Shown here one piece after another: positions 2,149-6,603 of a DNA stretch of 6,604 bases. A model generated the notes under the pieces. That model made no database searches. It saw nothing but the letters and a program-made list of their open reading frames with translations, and was not told where the DNA came from. Both the position numbers and the translations under genes were made by a program. Positions within the stretch are counted from its first letter, which is position 1, and the number at the start of each line of letters is the position of its first letter. Origin of the DNA: JBHIER01 sp046760705 [NCBI: bacterium] (GTDB taxonomy: Bacteria > JBHIER01 > G020348925); the NCBI GenBank assembly GCA_046760705.1, contig JBHIER010000196.1:1-6604 (forward strand), given 5' to 3'.

Positions 2149-2200
2149 GGACCATTCCAACAGAGATGAAGTCGCGGCTGTGATTCTGATCTTTATCCTC

Positions 2201-2566
2201 TCAGCTTTTGGAAATCAGAAAGATGCCCAGACAGACAACCCCCACACCCAGCCATCTCACGACGGAGACGTGTTCGTGAAAAAAGAGGATCGCCGCCATC
2301 ACCCCTAAGACATAGCTGATGCTCATCAAAGGATAGGCTAAGCTCAACTCAACTCTTGAGAGGACCTCGAGCCAGACCAACGTGGCCACTCCGAACAGAA
2401 AGAGCCCTCCCAAAATATACGGTGATGACACCAGGCTCCCCATCTTTGAGAGACTGAAATCGGAGGTGATGAAGAAACCGCCCATTCTCTTCAGCCCACA
2501 CTTCCACATCAATTGGCCGGACACCAACAGCAGATTACTGGCAAATATGAGGATGAGATATCTCAT
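2201..2566 (-). CDS. Four-helix EamA/SMR-type transporter (ArnE/ArnF-like candidate flippase)
   Basis: A 121-residue protein with four membrane helices at about 3-24, 48-70, 74-95 and 103-119, the size and layout of small multidrug resistance and half-EamA proteins. The C-terminal part is diagnostic of the DMT superfamily: LAYPLMSISYVLGV (76-89), then FFHEHVS (95-101) and a final G-rich helix. There is a Gly-Gln pair in helix 1 (17-18) and a Glu in helix 2 (E67). Relatives include ArnE/ArnF, which flip aminoarabinose-phosphoundecaprenol, and EmrE-type drug exporters. The nearby GT2 and GT-C proteins favour a lipid-linked sugar flippase, but that is inference. The ATG at 2566 has a good ribosome binding site (AGGAGAGG just upstream). 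A 156-bp gap holding a long inverted repeat separates it from the DUF2304 gene, so it may or may not be co-transcribed. It converges with the + strand gene across 52 bases in which I see no strong terminator. Confidence 0.85.
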   Translation of the reverse strand: MRYLILIFASNLLLVSGQLMWKCGLKRMGGFFITSDFSLSKMGSLVSSPYILGGLFLFGVATLVWLEVLSRVELSLAYPLMSISYVLGVMAAILFFHEHVSVVRWLGVGVVCLGIFLISKS

Positions 2567-2597
2567 AACCCTCTCCTATTGCGTTGTTACAAAGCAT

Positions 2598-2722
2598 ATC
2601 AGCGCATCAGTAAATCAGTAGGCAGGATGTCAGATTATCAGCATACCAGGCATCGTCTCCTCGGAGCGTGGTTTGTCCTGATATTTCCGATCCGCTGCCC
2701 ACTGATATTCTGATCGCCTGAT
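2598..2722. repeat. Long imperfect palindrome with 8-base-spaced ATCAG/CTGAT units
   Basis: The left arm has ATCAG at 2598, 2606, 2614 and 2637 (plus a variant GTCAG at 2629). The right arm has CTGAT at 2678, 2702, 2710 and 2718. Both arms keep an 8-base step. The outer units pair exactly about one centre near 2660: 2598-2602 with 2718-2722, 2606-2610 with 2710-2714, 2614-2618 with 2702-2706. The pairing runs on as GGCAG (2621-2625) with CTGCC (2695-2699), GAT with ATC, TATCAG (2636-2641) with CTGATA (2678-2683), ACCA with TGGT, and CTCC (2657-2660) with GGAG (2663-2666) at the tip. The 3-base spacers between outer units mostly do not pair. The one mismatch next to the third unit (2620/2700) becomes a G-U pair in a - strand transcript, the direction of the flanking genes. 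The element fills the gap between the DUF2304 stop and the transporter's ribosome binding site. Function unknown: mRNA hairpin, dispersed repeat, or protein-binding array. Confidence 0.85.
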
Positions 2723-3094
2723 CTACTCATCTCTCTTTTCAGTAGCCCTTGATCCGATCTCCTTCATCCTCTCCTTCAGCAGAGCCAGCTCCTGAGCCAG
2801 AGCCTTGTTCTGATCCGAAAGCTTTGTTATGACCACAGAGAAATGGAGAAAGATGGCCACACCCAGAAAGACGATGAGAGGCAGGAGAACCGCCGGGGCA
2901 TAATCGATTCCCATCCATTTCGCGACCATCTCCAGCAGGTTTCTCCAGAGCGAAAAGATAATCAGAACGATAGCCGAAAGGAGCCACAGAATGGAGTACT
3001 CCTCGCGGAACCTGCGCCGCCTGATGAGCTCCAACACGAACAGGAGCAAGAGCCCCCCGGCCACGGCTGCGAATATCTGGATCTTAAGCACCAT
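2723..3094 (-). CDS. DUF2304 family small membrane protein
   Basis: A 123-residue protein when started at the ATG at 3092-3094, which has AGGTGG three bases upstream. Starts further upstream (TTG at 3133, ATG at 3130) lack a ribosome binding site and would lengthen the overlap with the glycosyltransferase, so I rejected them. An N-terminal helix (IFAAVAGGLLLLFVLELI) is followed by a basic RRRRFREEYSILWLL turn typical of DUF2304, a second and a third helix, and a C-terminal coiled-coil-like tail (SDQNKALAQELALLKERMKE) ending in charged residues. The family has no established biochemical role. It is commonly encoded directly after a GT2 polyprenyl-phosphate glycosyltransferase, as here, where the start lies inside the last codons of the glycosyltransferase gene (11-base overlap). 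A membrane partner or anchor for a soluble GT2 enzyme is the natural inference, since the neighbour has no membrane domain of its own. Confidence 0.88.
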   Translation of the reverse strand: MVLKIQIFAAVAGGLLLLFVLELIRRRRFREEYSILWLLSAIVLIIFSLWRNLLEMVAKWMGIDYAPAVLLPLIVFLGVAIFLHFSVVITKLSDQNKALAQELALLKERMKEIGSRATEKRDE

Positions 3095-3803
3095 CACCAC
3101 CTCTCTTCTGAACCGGTTTTCGAAAGACATCAATACATGAGGCCAGCACCACCTTCACCATATAATAGACTGTTCGAAATCGGGTGATTGAAGACCTGCC
3201 GTGTTCTCTCTCCCGCATCCTCACCGGCACCTCCGCGATCTTGAAATTGTTCCTGCCCAAAAGGATAACAGCCTCCGGCTCTGGATAGTCGTACGGGTAA
3301 TTGGTTGACAGAAATCGTATTGCTCTCCTGTTGTAAGCTCGAAATCCCGAGGTGTTATCTGTGATCTTCTGACCGATCAAAATTGAGTTGAGAAGGGAGA
3401 AGGCGTAAATCCCTACGCGGCGAAAGAAGGTGGATTTGAGTCCCCCCCGGTCAAGAAATCGTGATCCTATGACAACATCGGCCTTTCCTTGGCCGATGGG
3501 CTCAATCAAATCCCCAATGTAGGAGGGGACGTGTTGACCATCGCCGTCTATCTGAATGGCAATATCGTAATTTTGAGAATCGGCATACAGAAAGCCAGTC
3601 TGAACCGCTCCCCCGATCCCCAGATTGATGGGCAACTCCAGAACGGTCGCCCCCTCCCTTTCGGCCACACCCTTGGTGTCGTCGGTGGAGCCGTCGTTGA
3701 CCACGACCACGTGGGCGGAGGGTTGGGCTGCCCGAACCTCTCGAAGGACGCCTCCAATATTCCGCTCCTCATTGTACGCCGGTATGATGACTACGATCTT
3801 CAT
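3084..3803 (-). CDS. GT2 family glycosyltransferase, DPM1-like polyprenyl-phosphate sugar synthase
   Basis: A 239-residue soluble enzyme. The ATG at 3803 starts MKIVVIIPAYNEE, the standard GT2 opening. An in-frame extension to 3830 would add nine residues that do not look like the family. GGTGA lies 7 bases and AGAGG 3 bases upstream. Visible motifs: NDGSTDDT (36-43, nucleotide-sugar binding), DGDGQH (86-91, the DXD metal site), GSRF (113-116), TSGFRAYNR (151-159) and REREHGRSS (197-205, the R-x-x-G-x-S element of dolichol-phosphate mannose synthases). This matches the DPM1/DPG-synthase group, which transfers mannose, glucose or a related sugar from a nucleotide donor to polyprenyl phosphate at the cytoplasmic face of the membrane. 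It lacks the C-terminal membrane helices of some relatives. Its last codons contain the ribosome binding site and start of the DUF2304 gene, so the two are probably translationally coupled. The sugar cannot be told from sequence. Confidence 0.92.
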   Translation of the reverse strand: MKIVVIIPAYNEERNIGGVLREVRAAQPSAHVVVVNDGSTDDTKGVAEREGATVLELPINLGIGGAVQTGFLYADSQNYDIAIQIDGDGQHVPSYIGDLIEPIGQGKADVVIGSRFLDRGGLKSTFFRRVGIYAFSLLNSILIGQKITDNTSGFRAYNRRAIRFLSTNYPYDYPEPEAVILLGRNNFKIAEVPVRMREREHGRSSITRFRTVYYMVKVVLASCIDVFRKPVQKRGGDGA

Positions 3804-3810
3804 TAGCCTC

Positions 3811-3957
3811 TCACCCGTACATGTCTGCAATCATCCCACTTTTCAGTCGGGCCACATGCCTGCGGAGCTCAGCCTTGCAGCAAGTTGCGACCTGGGCCAC
3901 CTGCGAGGTGGTCTTGGCCGCAGAGAGAGGAGAAGGTGTCATCCATTCAGCCGGCAT
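3811..3957 (-). CDS. Possible 48-residue small protein, unrecognised
   Basis: In the 185-bp gap between rplI and the GT2 gene, the - strand has an ATG at 3955-3957 and a TGA at 3811-3813, only 7 bases before the GT2 start. The predicted peptide starts MPAEWMTP, has a Cys-Cys pair at residues 26-27, and ends with a basic, helix-like stretch (AELRRHVARLKSG) before a short tail. No family is recognised. Against it: no ribosome binding site precedes the ATG, another in-frame ATG follows at 3942, and an ORF this short can occur by chance. For it: strand, position and spacing match an operon member, and the stop is embedded in the GT2 ribosome binding region. It could also be the remnant of a decayed gene. 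Confidence 0.25.
   Translation of the reverse strand: MPAEWMTPSPLSAAKTTSQVAQVATCCKAELRRHVARLKSGMIADMYG
3897..3911 (-). terminator. Small GC-rich hairpin downstream of rplI, weak terminator candidate
   Basis: CCACCT and AGGTGG form a 6-bp stem with a 3-base loop (GCG on the + strand, CGC in the - strand transcript). It lies 77 bases after the rplI stop and about 93 bases before the GT2 start. No run of U follows on the - strand, so it is not a standard intrinsic terminator. It may slow polymerase, protect the ribosomal mRNA 3' end, or mean nothing. It also falls inside the possible small ORF. Confidence 0.25.
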
Positions 3958-3988
3958 GGGAAGACAGGGGAAGTTGACGGCGGACGGA

Positions 3989-4432
3989 CTATTGCTTCAC
4001 CACCCATACCTTCACTCCAGCCTCAACCTCCGGGTGGAGCTTAACCGGTATGGTGTAAATTCCCAGGGCCTTCAAGGGTTCCTCCAGCACAATCTTCCGC
4101 CTGTCGATGTCGAACCCCTTCTCTTTCAGCAGCTCGGCTATGGTCTGAGCGGTGACCGAACCGAAAACTCTGTCTTCTTCTCCCACCGGCACGGTCGCCG
4201 TGCAGGAGATCTTGCCCAGATCACGGGCCATCTTTTCGGCCGACCGCCTCTCTTTGTTGGCCCTCATCCGCTTCTGCTTCTGCTCCTCCTCGTAGATCTT
4301 CCGGTTCGATGGCGTGGCCGGATAGCCCAGTTTTCTTGGGACGAGAAAGTTGCGGGCATAGCCTGCGGCCACATCTACGATCTGGCCTCTGGTTCCCAAA
4401 GAAGGAACATCTTCTCTCAGGATGATCTTCAT
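3989..4432 (-). CDS. rplI: 50S ribosomal protein bL9
   Basis: A 147-residue protein, the usual bL9 length. The ATG at 4430-4432 opens MKIILREDVPSLG. A strong AGGAGG lies 4 bases upstream, so the in-frame extension to 4477 is rejected. The N-terminal RNA-binding domain (about 1-50) has the signature GYARNFLVP (24-32). A long charged connecting helix follows (about 41-75, with EEEQKQKR). The C-terminal domain contains the conserved RVFGSVT and ends KVWVVKQ. bL9 binds 23S rRNA near the L1 stalk base and reaches across to neighbouring ribosomes, helping to hold the reading frame. It lies 22 bases after rpsR in the common bacterial order rpsF-rpsR-rplI. dnaB, which often follows rplI, is absent here; sugar-transfer genes follow instead. 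Confidence 0.98.
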   Translation of the reverse strand: MKIILREDVPSLGTRGQIVDVAAGYARNFLVPRKLGYPATPSNRKIYEEEQKQKRMRANKERRSAEKMARDLGKISCTATVPVGEEDRVFGSVTAQTIAELLKEKGFDIDRRKIVLEEPLKALGIYTIPVKLHPEVEAGVKVWVVKQ

Positions 4433-4436
4433 GCTT

Positions 4437-4442
4437 CCTCCT
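4437..4442 (-). promoter_or_regulatory. rplI ribosome binding site
   Basis: AGGAGG on the - strand, 4 bases before the ATG at 4432. It lies in the 22-base rpsR-rplI gap and decides the rplI start against a longer in-frame extension that would overlap rpsR. Confidence 0.9.
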
Positions 4443-4454
4443 CTCAACCCCACC

Positions 4455-4745
4455 TTAATGGTATGTCTCAGCCACATACGGCAGGAGAGCCAGATGGCGG
4501 GCTCGCTTGATCGCCGTGGTCAACTGCCTCTGGTGTCTGGCGCACGTTCCGGTGATCCGTCTGGGGATGATCTTCCCCCTGTCGGTGATGAACCCCCGCA
4601 GACGGCGGTCGTCCTTGTAGTCAATGTGCTCAATCCTGTCAGCGCAGAATCGACAGGGCTTTCGGCGCCCCCTCCTCTCTTGGAATCCCCTTCTCTCTCT
4701 AAACACAGCCGTTCTCTTGTTCTTAATCCCCTTTGATCTGTTCAC
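4455..4745 (-). CDS. rpsR: 30S ribosomal protein bS18
   Basis: A 96-residue protein. The start is a GTG at 4743-4745 (then AACAGATCA), with AGGGGGG 4-5 bases upstream. The N-terminal tail is very basic and variable ([14 protein letters not shown]). The conserved core runs from CRFC (31-34) through [22 protein letters not shown] and CARHQRQL (68-75) to a C-terminal [10 protein letters not shown] (81-90). C31, C34, C68 and H71 are intact, so this looks like a metal-binding (C+) form of S18, which is known to occur with and without these residues. S18 pairs with S6 on the 30S platform, and rpsF lies just upstream. The intervening 91 bp contain no ssb gene, unlike the rpsF-ssb-rpsR-rplI order of many bacteria. 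Confidence 0.97.
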
Positions 4746-4836
4746 TGTTCCCCCCTTATATACGGGTTCAGGCTTTCTCCTCCCGACCGGTCACCCTTCT
4801 CGAAGAGCTCAAGGGCCAAATCGGGGCCGCGAGGTC
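4746..4836 (-). other. rpsF-rpsR spacer, no ssb
   Basis: 91 bases between the rpsF stop and the rpsR GTG. There is room for a leader but not for ssb, and none of the three - strand frames gives a recognisable peptide. An 8-bp palindrome GACCGGTC sits at 4785-4792, and a TATATA at 4757-4762 lies too close to the rpsR start to be a convincing -10 box. The rpsR ribosome binding site is at the 3' end of the spacer. Confidence 0.6.
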
Positions 4837-5148
4837 TCATCTTCCCTTCTCCTCGGTCGGCTCCTGCTTCACAGCGATGTTCAGATACCTCAAAACGGTC
4901 TCGTCCAGTTCAAGCTCGCGTTCAAGCTCGGCTACGGATGAGCCCTCGGCCTCAAATCGGACGACCACGTAATACCCCTGACCCTTCCTGCGGATGGGAT
5001 AGGCCAGTTTTCTCCGACCCCATCGATTGATATCGGAGATCGTGCCTCCGTGGGCCTGAATGAGGCCTTCGATCTTCTTGACCTCTGCCTCTATCCCTTC
5101 GTTCTCCAGAGAGCCGTCTATGACGATGGTCTCCTCATAGATTTTCAA
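4837..5148 (-). CDS. rpsF: 30S ribosomal protein bS6
   Basis: A 103-residue protein of normal S6 length. It starts at a TTG (5146-5148) that aligns with the family N-terminus (KIYEETIVID). There is no nearby ATG, and a near-perfect ribosome binding site sits at the right distance. The fold is the S6 ferredoxin-like domain. The hallmark NRWGRRKLAYPI is at 41-52, followed by KGQGYYVVVRFEA and ELERELELDETVLRYL, with a short charged tail (KQEPTEEKGR). S6 binds S18 and 16S rRNA helices in the 30S platform. In several bacteria the S6:S18 complex represses its own mRNA through a leader structure; a candidate lies upstream here. First gene of the ribosomal cluster, 210 bp after hppA on the same strand. 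Confidence 0.98.
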   Translation of the reverse strand: MKIYEETIVIDGSLENEGIEAEVKKIEGLIQAHGGTISDINRWGRRKLAYPIRRKGQGYYVVVRFEAEGSSVAELERELELDETVLRYLNIAVKQEPTEEKGR

Positions 5149-5152
5149 TCTC

Positions 5153-5162
5153 TCACCTCCTT
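5153..5162 (-). promoter_or_regulatory. Near-perfect ribosome binding site of rpsF
   Basis: AAGGAGGTGA on the - strand, almost the full complement of the 16S rRNA 3' end, 4 bases before the TTG start of rpsF. It supports the TTG as the true start and probably offsets the weaker initiation codon. Confidence 0.92.
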
Positions 5163-5171
5163 TTTAGGAAG

Positions 5172-5211
5172 AAAATCCAAAATCCAAAACAAATTCCAAC
5201 TACCAAAATCC
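5172..5211. repeat. Short degenerate heptamer repeat AAAATCC
   Basis: AAAATCC occurs at 5172-5178, directly repeated at 5179-5185, then a degenerate AAAACAAATTCC, then again at 5205-5211. Read on the - strand it is a GGATTTT-rich tract upstream of the rpsF ribosome binding site. It resembles the short tandem repeats scattered through intergenic DNA of some environmental bacteria. Function unknown, and too short to classify further. Confidence 0.6.
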
Positions 5212-5269
5212 CAATGCTCCAAAGCAAAAAACCCTTGCCTAAAGCAATTCAGCTTTGATCTGTTTCGAA

Positions 5270-5313
5270 TTCCTGAACCCCTGAACGGAGTCAGGGGCAA
5301 GCTCTGTCAGGAA
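5270..5313 (-). promoter_or_regulatory. Nested hairpin between hppA and rpsF (leader element or terminator)
   Basis: Two 7-bp perfect stems are nested: an outer stem TTCCTGA (5270-5276) with TCAGGAA (5307-5313), and an inner stem CCCCTGA (5278-5284) with TCAGGGG (5291-5297). In the - strand transcript the internal loop is 9 bases on the 5' side and 1 on the 3' side, and the apical loop is CUCCGU, which exposes CCG. The CCTGA units of one arm are 8 bases apart and their partners 16 apart, so alternative pairings are possible. No U run follows. It lies 45 bases after the hppA stop and 121 bases before the rpsF TTG. It may be an hppA terminator or processing site, or a leader element of rpsF; the exposed CCG recalls the S6:S18-binding leader motif described in other bacteria. 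Confidence 0.6.
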
Positions 5314-5358
5314 CAGGTTTCAAGATCTCGCCTTATGAAGCAGGCTAGTGTCTGCGCC

Positions 5359-6603
5359 TCATTTGAGAAACAGCGGGGCCAGGACCAGGGCGATGATCGA
5401 CATCAGCTTGATCATGATGTTGAGGGACGGTCCCGAGGTATCCTTCATGGGATCGCCGACCGTATCTCCGACGACACTCGCCTTATGGGCCTGCGACCCT
5501 TTTCCTCCGTAGTTTCCCTTTTCAATCCATTTCTTTGCGTTGTCCCACGAGCCGCCGGCGTTGGCCATAGTGACGGCCAGAATGAATCCGGTGACGATGG
5601 CCCCGACTAAAAATCCCCCCAGGGCCAGGGGCCCCAGGGCAAACCCGACAACGATGGGAGCGGCAACCGTCATCAGTCCTGGAGCGAGCATCTCTTTGAG
5701 GGCGTCTTTGGTACAGATATCGACGCACCGCTTGTATTCGGGCCGCGCCTCCCCCTCCATCAGGCCTGGAATCTCCCGGAACTGGCGTCGGACCTCGTTG
5801 ATGATGGTAAAGGAGGTTCTGCCCACGGCCGTCAGGGTGAGGGCGCAGAAGACGGCTGGCAGCATAGCGCCCAAGAAGAGTCCGATGATGACTCTGGCAT
5901 CCAGGAGGCTTATTTCGCTCGGCTTCAATCCGGCTGCCTGCGAATAGGAGAGCATCAGGGCCAGGGCCGTCAGGCCCGCTGCCCCGATGGCGAACCCCTT
6001 GCCCGTGGCGGCCGTCGTATTTCCCAGAGAATCGAGGGCGTCGGTCCGCTCCCGGATCTCCGGCGGCAGGCCCGACATCTCGACGATGCCACCCGAATTG
6101 TCGGCCACTGGGCCGTAGGCATCGGTGGCTAAGGTGATGCCCAGGGTAGAGAGCATACCGATACCGGCGATGGCCACCCCGTAAATATCGGCGAAGTGAT
6201 GGGCCACCCAGATGGCGGCGACCACAAGGAGAATGGGCAGCAGGGTGGACTTCAGACCGTTGGCAAATCCGGCCACGATCGTTGTGCCGGCCCCGGTTTG
6301 AGAGGCTTCCGACATCCTGCGCGTCGGCTTATAAGCGTACGATGTGAAGTAGTTGGTGCTCTCTCCGATCAAGATGCCGGCCCCCAAACCGGCCAGGATG
6401 GCCCAAAATAAGCCCATGCTCGCCTTCAGAAGAACAACGGCCAGAAGGGAAAAAGCGGCCGTCAAAATCGAGGCGGCGAAGATTCCCCGGCGCAGAGCCG
6501 ATAGAAGTGCCTCCATCTCCGGCTTCTCGCCCACCCTGACGAAGAACGCGCCGACGATGGAGGCGACGATCCCTCCGGCAGCCACCATCAGGGGCAGAAA
6601 CCA
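5359..6603 (-). CDS. hppA: Membrane-bound pyrophosphatase, K+-dependent type, C-terminal part
   Basis: The last 414 residues are visible; the N-terminal third or more lies beyond the right edge, since the family is usually about 650-800 residues. The Met at 6588 is internal, because the frame continues upstream as WFLPL. The enzyme hydrolyses cytoplasmic pyrophosphate and pumps H+ and/or Na+ out across the membrane. Counting from that Met, family hallmarks are TDAYGPVADNSGGIVEM (155-171), GNTTAATGKGFAIG (189-202), and GGSWDNAKKWIE (345-356) followed by HKASVVGDTVGDPMKDTSGPSLN (368-390), which carry catalytic Asp and Lys residues. In the second motif, Ala193 and Gly196 replace the Lys and Thr of K+-independent enzymes, so this is a K+-dependent form. 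Whether the ion is H+ or Na+ depends on residues partly outside the window. The gene ends 210 bp before rpsF on the same strand. Confidence 0.96.
   Translation of the reverse strand, partial: WFLPLMVAAGGIVASIVGAFFVRVGEKPEMEALLSALRRGIFAASILTAAFSLLAVVLLKASMGLFWAILAGLGAGILIGESTNYFTSYAYKPTRRMSEASQTGAGTTIVAGFANGLKSTLLPILLVVAAIWVAHHFADIYGVAIAGIGMLSTLGITLATDAYGPVADNSGGIVEMSGLPPEIRERTDALDSLGNTTAATGKGFAIGAAGLTALALMLSYSQAAGLKPSEISLLDARVIIGLFLGAMLPAVFCALTLTAVGRTSFTIINEVRRQFREIPGLMEGEARPEYKRCVDICTKDALKEMLAPGLMTVAAPIVVGFALGPLALGGFLVGAIVTGFILAVTMANAGGSWDNAKKWIEKGNYGGKGSQAHKASVVGDTVGDPMKDTSGPSLNIMIKLMSIIALVLAPLFLK

Follow-up and report, generated by a model that had tools for sequence, protein, structure and literature searches.

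Intervening sequences (IVSs) of 23S rRNA that carry an open reading frame for the IVP/S23p protein are described in Leptospira, Coxiella and other bacteria (PMC4990558). In Coxiella the IVS is located in helix 45 of the 23S rRNA, comprises 428 nt, is closed by a near-perfect terminal stem of 28 bp and is cut by RNase III (PMC4990558). According to the sections of the same source that deal with the protein, IVP/S23 was reported in 1993, still had no known function in 2016 and goes with IVSs that are suspected of mobility, while a Xanthomonas homologue assembles into a pentamer of four-helix bundles (PMC4990558). IVP genes have also been listed in cas loci, including a position between cmr3 and cmr2 (PMC3936711).

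Tandem and opposed short units are described elsewhere in bacterial intergenic DNA. The repeats (GGGAATC)n of Xanthomonas and (GGGGATT)n of Nostoc form intergenic heptad arrays near gene ends; two Xanthomonas genomes contain 70 and 75 opposed GGGAATC pairs, which were read as quadruplex-forming, Nostoc holds only a few opposed pairs, and the term '23S' occurs nowhere in the main text of that paper (PMC4692102). BrickBuilt of P. gingivalis is described as a MITE with 23-nt tandem units (PMC4596501). Among the papers listed in searches of largely open-access literature, we found no description that links IVP genes to flanking arrays, and none that we recognised as bringing together the rRNA IVSs, the IVP genes of cas loci and the heptamer repeats. 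REP/BIME elements are short, palindromic, intergenic and multicopy, are moved in trans by RAYT and carry a GTAG or CGTC tag at the foot of the palindrome. Avd of the diversity-generating retroelements, a relative of IVP, is a four-helix-bundle pentamer that binds nucleic acid. Here we report a hairpin from a bacterial operon and compare it with these systems and with the arrays that surround IVP genes.

The window, by which we mean the whole stretch of 6,604 nucleotides analysed (contig JBHIER010000196.1 of JBHIER01 sp046760705), contains seven Pfam-tested genes within 2201–6588, all on the minus strand: hppA, rpsF, rpsR, rplI, a GT2 glycosyltransferase gene (PF00535, 3084–3803, E 2.4e-26), a DUF2304 gene (PF10066, 2723–3097, E 1.2e-23; ORF 2723–3133) and a gene for a small EamA/EmrE-like transporter (PF00892, 2201–2566, E 5.6e-8). 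Among 34 genomes searched, 31 of which gave a match, its rplI comes closest to that of a KSB1 genome (55% identity). The hairpin stands between the DUF2304 gene upstream and the transporter gene downstream, whose start is 26 nt past the hairpin edge; a reading of the window made from its letters (the sequence-only reading) had set the element against the DUF2304 stop, and the stop codon TAG (2725–2723, minus strand) indeed falls inside the terminal unit. Given this position, the hairpin is probably transcribed with the operon. Two further repeats were seen in the window. In the rpsF–hppA gap, AAAATCC-like units about 7 nt long are repeated in direct orientation (5169–5228), in an array that resembles IVP arms elsewhere (locus L149); an opposed arm to this array was not found, and the fold of the gap barely beats shuffled sequence (z −0.93). 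At 5271–5312 there is a hairpin CCCCTGA...TCAGGGG in which CTGA and TCAG are everted, that is, in the reverse order of those in the hairpin described here.

Read from the sequence, the element spans 2593–2727 (135 bp). The left arm (2593–2649, plus strand) opens with the terminal half-unit AG (2593–2594) and continues with TCAG at 2599, 2607 and 2615, GCAG at 2622, TCAG at 2630 and 2638 and CCAG at 2646, in steps of 8, 8, 7, 8, 8 and 8 nt. The right arm (2678–2727, minus strand) is its mirror image, with the half-unit CT (2726–2727; AG on the minus strand) followed inwards by CTGA at 2718, 2710 and 2702, CTGC at 2695, CCGA at 2687 and CTGA at 2678, in steps of 8, 8, 7, 8 and 9 nt; steps and half-units were read from the sequence, the half-units being supported by the end composition of relatives. 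The shortened step of 7 nt, or kink, falls at the matching position in the two arms, and among 16 aligned hairpins the kink is present in one place per arm, 1–2 nt shorter still in 12 of the 32 arms. The eight copies in opposed 8-nt arrays on which the sequence-only reading was built are all there (ATCAG at 2598, 2606, 2614 and 2637; CTGAT at 2678, 2702, 2710 and 2718). Its three-unit arms at 2598–2722 consist of real units, but each arm has more of them and the true span is the wider one given above. Its mirror about a single centre applies to the outer arms, where paired coordinates sum to 5320, but not to the inner pair (5319) or to the tip CTCC/GGAG (5323), and the stem by which pairing was to continue to that tip is missing from the computed fold. 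The hairpin proposed there is very stable: the minus-strand RNA of 2722–2598 folds at −54.1 kcal/mol, whereas 200 dinucleotide-shuffled sequences average −31.3 ± 3.4 and none of them is as low (z −6.7), and the DNA fold gives z −4.05. Each of the 16 window-type hairpins beats shuffled sequence in folding, whichever strand is taken (z −2.2 to −10.8). With 135 bp the element is too short to hold an IVP gene, none is present between its arms, and it is classed here as an ORF-less form rather than a complete IVP element.

Similar arrays are dispersed widely among bacteria. A pattern of six cores, in which three TCAG octads face three CTGA octads 70–100 bases away, occurs in at least 118 stretches of bacterial genomes (257 Gb scanned), against a chance expectation of about 0.03–0.06 by our own arithmetic under equal base frequencies; the hairpin of the window is thus not unique. 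Viral contigs scanned with the same pattern gave no match. Carriers among the matches listed include Anaerolineae, Acidobacteria, Rubrobacter, Omnitrophota, WOR-1, WOR-3, KSB1, Elusimicrobia, Planctomycetes, Bacteroidales and others, nearly all as metagenome assemblies. In 40 genomes picked for carrying the six-core pattern, a four-core pattern with a gap of 60–90 bases yielded 722 nested matches spread over 39 of the genomes, up to 87 in a single one, against 14 for the pattern read backwards. A chance origin is ruled out by the number of six-core stretches, by the fold z and by the backward-pattern control. None of 130 merged elements lies wholly within an open frame of at least 200 codons; of the ORF-less elements (n = 130), 65 stand between codirectional genes, 20 between convergent and 20 between divergent ones (25 uncalled), which speaks against a strict leader position. 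Flank repeats of at least 8 bases occur at 11/126 ORF-less elements, compared with 23/1260 swapped, which gives no more than a hint of target duplication.

The composition of these relatives defines both the ends and the unit. Outside the outermost TCAG, at both ends, the base at −5 is G in 76% of cases and the base at −6 is A in about 50% (130 elements, contributing 128 left and 130 right ends), whereas positions −8 and −7, where a full unit would have TC, are near background; AG/CT are therefore defined ends of the element. In the 99 of 130 elements with exact outer units, N1, one of the two bases next to TCAG, agrees with that of the neighbouring unit at.74, of the pairing partner at.73 and of a non-partner at.75, as against.29 in other elements, and N4 behaves alike (.62,.64 and.62, against.33). 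The two middle spacer bases match at.31–.39 inside an element and at.29–.31 between elements. Since the flanking bases agree and the middle ones are near-random, the unit is best described as an element-specific hexamer N-TCAG-N followed by two nearly free bases. Pair-by-pair RNA covariation was rejected as an account of these arrays, paired units agreeing no better than unpaired ones, and the same result argues for repeated sequence recognition rather than base-pair covariation. Of the earlier expectation that paired 5-mers would co-vary while spacers drift, the conserved cores and the drifting spacers stand, but in the 99 relatives no covariation is specific to paired units.

Genes for PF05635 (23S_rRNA_IVP) are present in 38 of the 40 TCAG-hairpin carriers (19/20 and 19/20; G006 and G045 have none) and in 0/14 control genomes in either search, the controls being few and well known. 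The full set comprises 110 IVP loci read on both strands, 109 with usable flanks. When the upstream flank is compared with the reverse-complemented downstream flank at a cut-off score of 28, 87 of the 109 genes score higher and 22 fail (24/29 score higher in the later locus set alone), as against 13/468 control ORFs of similar size; 91 of the 109 exceed the 99th percentile (27) and 63 the maximum (33) of 545 swapped pairs, whose mean is 18.3. Among the 160 flanks of the first 80 loci, 82 reach a 65% lag match over 40 nt, and none does after shuffling; the array period in these is 7 (43 flanks), 14 (16), 8 (15) or another value (8). The cores vary by element and include TCAG octads, TCAG heptads, GCAGAAG, TTAGGAA, GGTGCTAG and more, and the median length of the IVP elements is 496 bp. 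The UBP18 genome G019, bearer of the window-type hairpin L078, has IVP matches that are mainly broken or partial (L137, L158), as though gene-less hairpins were able to persist after their IVP has decayed.

The arms of the window hairpin tie it to one lineage of these genes. The arm profile comprises 32 arms that come from 16 ORF-less window-type hairpins (the window, Omnitrophota, WOR-1, WOR-3, KSB1, UBP18 and others); some of the 16 share genomes with matched IVP genes (G014, G020, G021), and no IVP flank entered the profile. Without the window rows it matches the window at 2593–2651 on the plus strand (E 1.4e-15) and at 2726–2675 on the minus strand (E 6.1e-10), its next match in the window having E 1.5 and nothing else falling below E 1. 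Searched with the full profile, the 8 best of 220 IVP flanks are both flanks of four loci, L152 (WOR-3), L166 (Elusimicrobia), L271 (unclassified bacterium KR13) and L140 (WOR-1), with E from 5e-14 to 5e-8, against a best E of 0.38 for shuffled flanks. Among the flanks next in rank (L179, L195, L267 and L193; E 2.5e-6 to 1e-3) are plain TCAG octads that belong to other IVP branches. When 102 IVP proteins were placed in a tree (8 of 110, with stops or short, left out), the proteins of the four best loci, which come from four genomes, formed together with those of the weakly matching L267 and L146 one branch with support of 97/73, below the tool's star threshold; 0/500 label shuffles were as low, L267 and L146 uncounted. 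Kink-free TCAG octads also border IVP genes outside this branch (L129, L179, L193, L195), so that the TCAG core alone marks no single lineage and the argument depends on the kinked arm as a whole. Over 83 loci the similarity of proteins and that of arm 4-mers are correlated with a small rho of 0.114 (3300 cross-genome pairs), a value reached by 0/2000 free permutations and by 1/2000 when arms are permuted within genomes; a T8/T7 group test, which addressed a different question with nine rows only, gave no sign of clustering (shuffles as low: 127 and 131 of 500). Arm type thus co-segregates with IVP lineage, and the window hairpin is linked to the family of the IVP elements.

The IVP-bearing relatives are polymorphic for presence and absence. 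Compared with Trichormus variabilis ATCC 29413, Nostoc MS1 has 479 bp inserted and flanked on either side by TACTAAG, and Picosynechococcus PCC 7003 has an IVP element between cmr2 and cmr3 (insert edges read by eye) where PCC 7002 has a gap of 12 nt. Three plasmids of Nostoc ATCC 53789 share a gene row A-B-C and carry an IVP element in A|B (pNsp_a), in B|C (pNsp_c) or in neither (pNsp_b); in the related plasmid pC052_A the stop and start codons overlap at the empty B|C junction (GGTAATGGG), and both codons are retained in the filled junction of pNsp_c. The pair Anabaena 90/Dolichospermum was discarded as a clean empty site, its gap containing another sequence. Twelve plasmid loci were hand-picked from 48 rows, mostly of cultured cyanobacteria: by eye, arrays frame the IVP gene in 11 of them and the twelfth (L206) has TCAG heptads on inspection, and only 5/12 score above the maximum of the swapped pairs (43), since purine-rich cores are alike from one plasmid to another. 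Target duplications are short and imperfect, and they vary. Between codirectional genes, 56 of the 87 arrayed IVP loci stand in sense and 3 in antisense orientation; 10 have convergent and 5 have divergent neighbours, 13 have an uncalled side, and the median distance of the arrayed loci is 4 nt from the upstream stop (71 loci) and 16 nt to the downstream start (63 loci). The window hairpin, with the DUF2304 stop in its last unit, fits this placement. Inside cas operons of cyanobacterial plasmids (L205, L209, L210), IVP elements stand once in cmr2|cmr3 and twice in cas6|cas4, and 'CRISPR-associated IVP' may simply denote insertions into operon gaps. As separate observations, the IVP element of Tolypothrix PCC 7910 (L204, 1900–2490) lies over the start of an integrase gene, with a similar, diverged start region on its far side, and in Anabaena sp. 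90 (L209, 1580–1990) the GGTGACA/GGGAACA heptad array upstream of the IVP gene is much longer than the downstream arm.

The sequence-only reading had favoured a device that tunes the expression of this one transporter, and a cis-regulatory RNA such as an attenuator, RNA thermometer or processing site, setting the EamA-type transporter against DUF2304 and GT2, would suit the very stable fold of the coding strand, the snug fit between stop and ribosome-binding site and the common strand of the adjacent genes. The identical arm type nevertheless recurs in many other gaps and around IVP genes, and tuning of the transporter is not supported as the main reading. In agreement with the earlier failure to assign the element to a terminator family, no terminator-like site was found within 2593–2727 (three lie elsewhere in 2150–3200), the element shows no G+C-rich stem followed by a T run, and Rfam covariance models gave 0 matches to the window at E ≤ 1; an attenuator or terminator was rejected on these grounds, and cis-regulatory RNA as a whole is improbable, although an effect of the hairpin on its operon is possible. 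Regulation could instead come from the protein, if mRNAs were regulated or processed by IVP bound to the arrays, with the ORF-less hairpins as domesticated targets in trans and mobility incidental or over. The sense orientation in operons (56 vs 3), the tight fit between stop and start and the lineage-specific cores would all be expected of such targets, but the occupied sites differ between plasmids of a single strain (Nostoc ATCC 53789) and a genome can have many matches, up to 87 nested ones, and we regard the proposal as unlikely.

Two further explanations were weighed. In one, the element is of REP/BIME type and is moved by RAYT, a Y1 transposase, REPs being likewise intergenic palindromes mobilised in trans. 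Y1_Tnp genes do occur in 18/20 carrier genomes, but also in 5/14 control genomes, where IVP is found in 0/14. Of 20 Y1 loci taken, L232 (at a contig end) was left out and 7 were dropped for short flanks; 0 of the 12 usable loci match the arm profile (best E 0.54), and the complementary flanks at 4 of the 12 are plain hairpins or inverted repeats with no tandem octads, all of which makes this origin very unlikely. On contig 71 of genome G009 (L147/L233) an IVP gene lies about 460 bp or less from a Y1 transposase gene. In the other, replication slippage and hairpin-templated repair turn low-complexity DNA into a tandem palindrome with no dedicated protein. The wide variation in unit number and spacer bases, and the long, repetitive character of some arrays, would follow readily; one core and one kink position are, however, kept across phyla, the AG/CT ends are defined and arm type tracks IVP lineage. 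Copying from arm to arm would moreover make paired spacers match, and they match no better than unpaired ones, so that passive DNA seems most improbable.

The window element is instead quite likely an ORF-less, MITE-like form of the IVP-element family, which would most probably spread in the following manner. In a complete element two inverted arrays of short units enclose one IVP gene (PF05635), whose product is a small protein of the four-helix-bundle type; in the window type the units are 8-nt octads with the core (A)TCAG and one kink. The cognate IVP would bind these units, recognising about 6 bases of each and leaving 2 nearly free, in the folded hairpin, either as RNA or as single-stranded DNA; the complex of IVP and hairpin would then be copied or moved to new gene junctions by an insertion that preserves the upstream stop and the downstream start, and the ORF-less form would be moved in trans. 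The window hairpin could in addition be cut by RNase III in the way of 23S rRNA intervening sequences. The comparisons show the architecture, the link to the family, the co-segregation of arms with IVP lineage and, for IVP-bearing relatives, filled and empty sites; direct binding by IVP, mobilisation in trans, the RNA or DNA route and RNase III cutting are steps that we infer. Since we know of no catalytic activity of IVP, the protein may perhaps be bound cargo rather than the mover.

More tentatively, and with confidence somewhat short of even, we suggest that IVPs could provide the specificity of a large class of mobile elements that has so far gone unrecognised and has no known recombinase; in this class each lineage would read its own hairpin code of 7–8 nt and complete and gene-less forms would spread together through operon gaps across phyla, possibly via RNA, and the rRNA IVSs and the Xanthomonas and Nostoc heptamers would be special cases. 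The old orphan protein IVP/S23 in any event gains a concrete setting, in that 87/109 of its genes have complementary flanks, typically arrays, whose sequence tracks the protein lineage. This setting may account for dispersed hairpins and heptamer repeats that might be taken for regulatory RNAs, G-quadruplexes or simple repeats, and for the IVP genes in cas operons that the compilation cited above lists as CRISPR-associated (PMC3936711). With a protein-to-repeat code of which nature offers many variants, binding and mobility become directly testable.

Among known systems, REP/BIME elements with RAYT resemble the present hairpins in being short, palindromic, intergenic and multicopy; they differ in their protein, which is of the Y1 family, and the 12 Y1 loci tested have no octad arrays. 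Avd is alike as a related four-helix-bundle pentamer; no reverse transcriptase is annotated in 11 annotated plasmid stretches with IVP genes (L207 being unannotated), and a link of IVP to reverse transcription is speculation. MITEs, with BrickBuilt as it is described, share the non-autonomous and intergenic character, the inverted ends and the tandem units, but the BrickBuilt unit has 23 nt instead of 8 and the IVP elements are without a recognised transposase (PMC4596501). The window element has the terminal inverted repeats of a MITE, and by eye no target-site duplication is evident at it. The opposed GGGAATC pairs of Xanthomonas have the same architecture as the arrays of the IVP elements but are described in that report as G-quadruplex repeats (PMC4692102). 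The 23S rRNA IVSs, as the Coxiella account presents them, share the PF05635 protein, the complementary ends that form a hairpin and a similar length (428 nt in Coxiella against a median of 496 bp here) (PMC4990558). The window element likewise folds into a hairpin with complementary ends, at the z of −6.7 given above, but it is situated between the DUF2304 and EamA-type genes and not in 23S rRNA, just as the IVP elements surveyed here occupy gaps between protein genes. The 28-bp stem of Coxiella is matched here by arrays of 7–8-nt units with nearly free spacer bases, and the IVS carries the IVP ORF whereas the window copy is without it. Array ends, insertion sites and a gene-less form are absent from these descriptions, so far as the cited accounts extend, and the element reported here, which looks like a MITE, is grouped with the IVSs and IVP genes.
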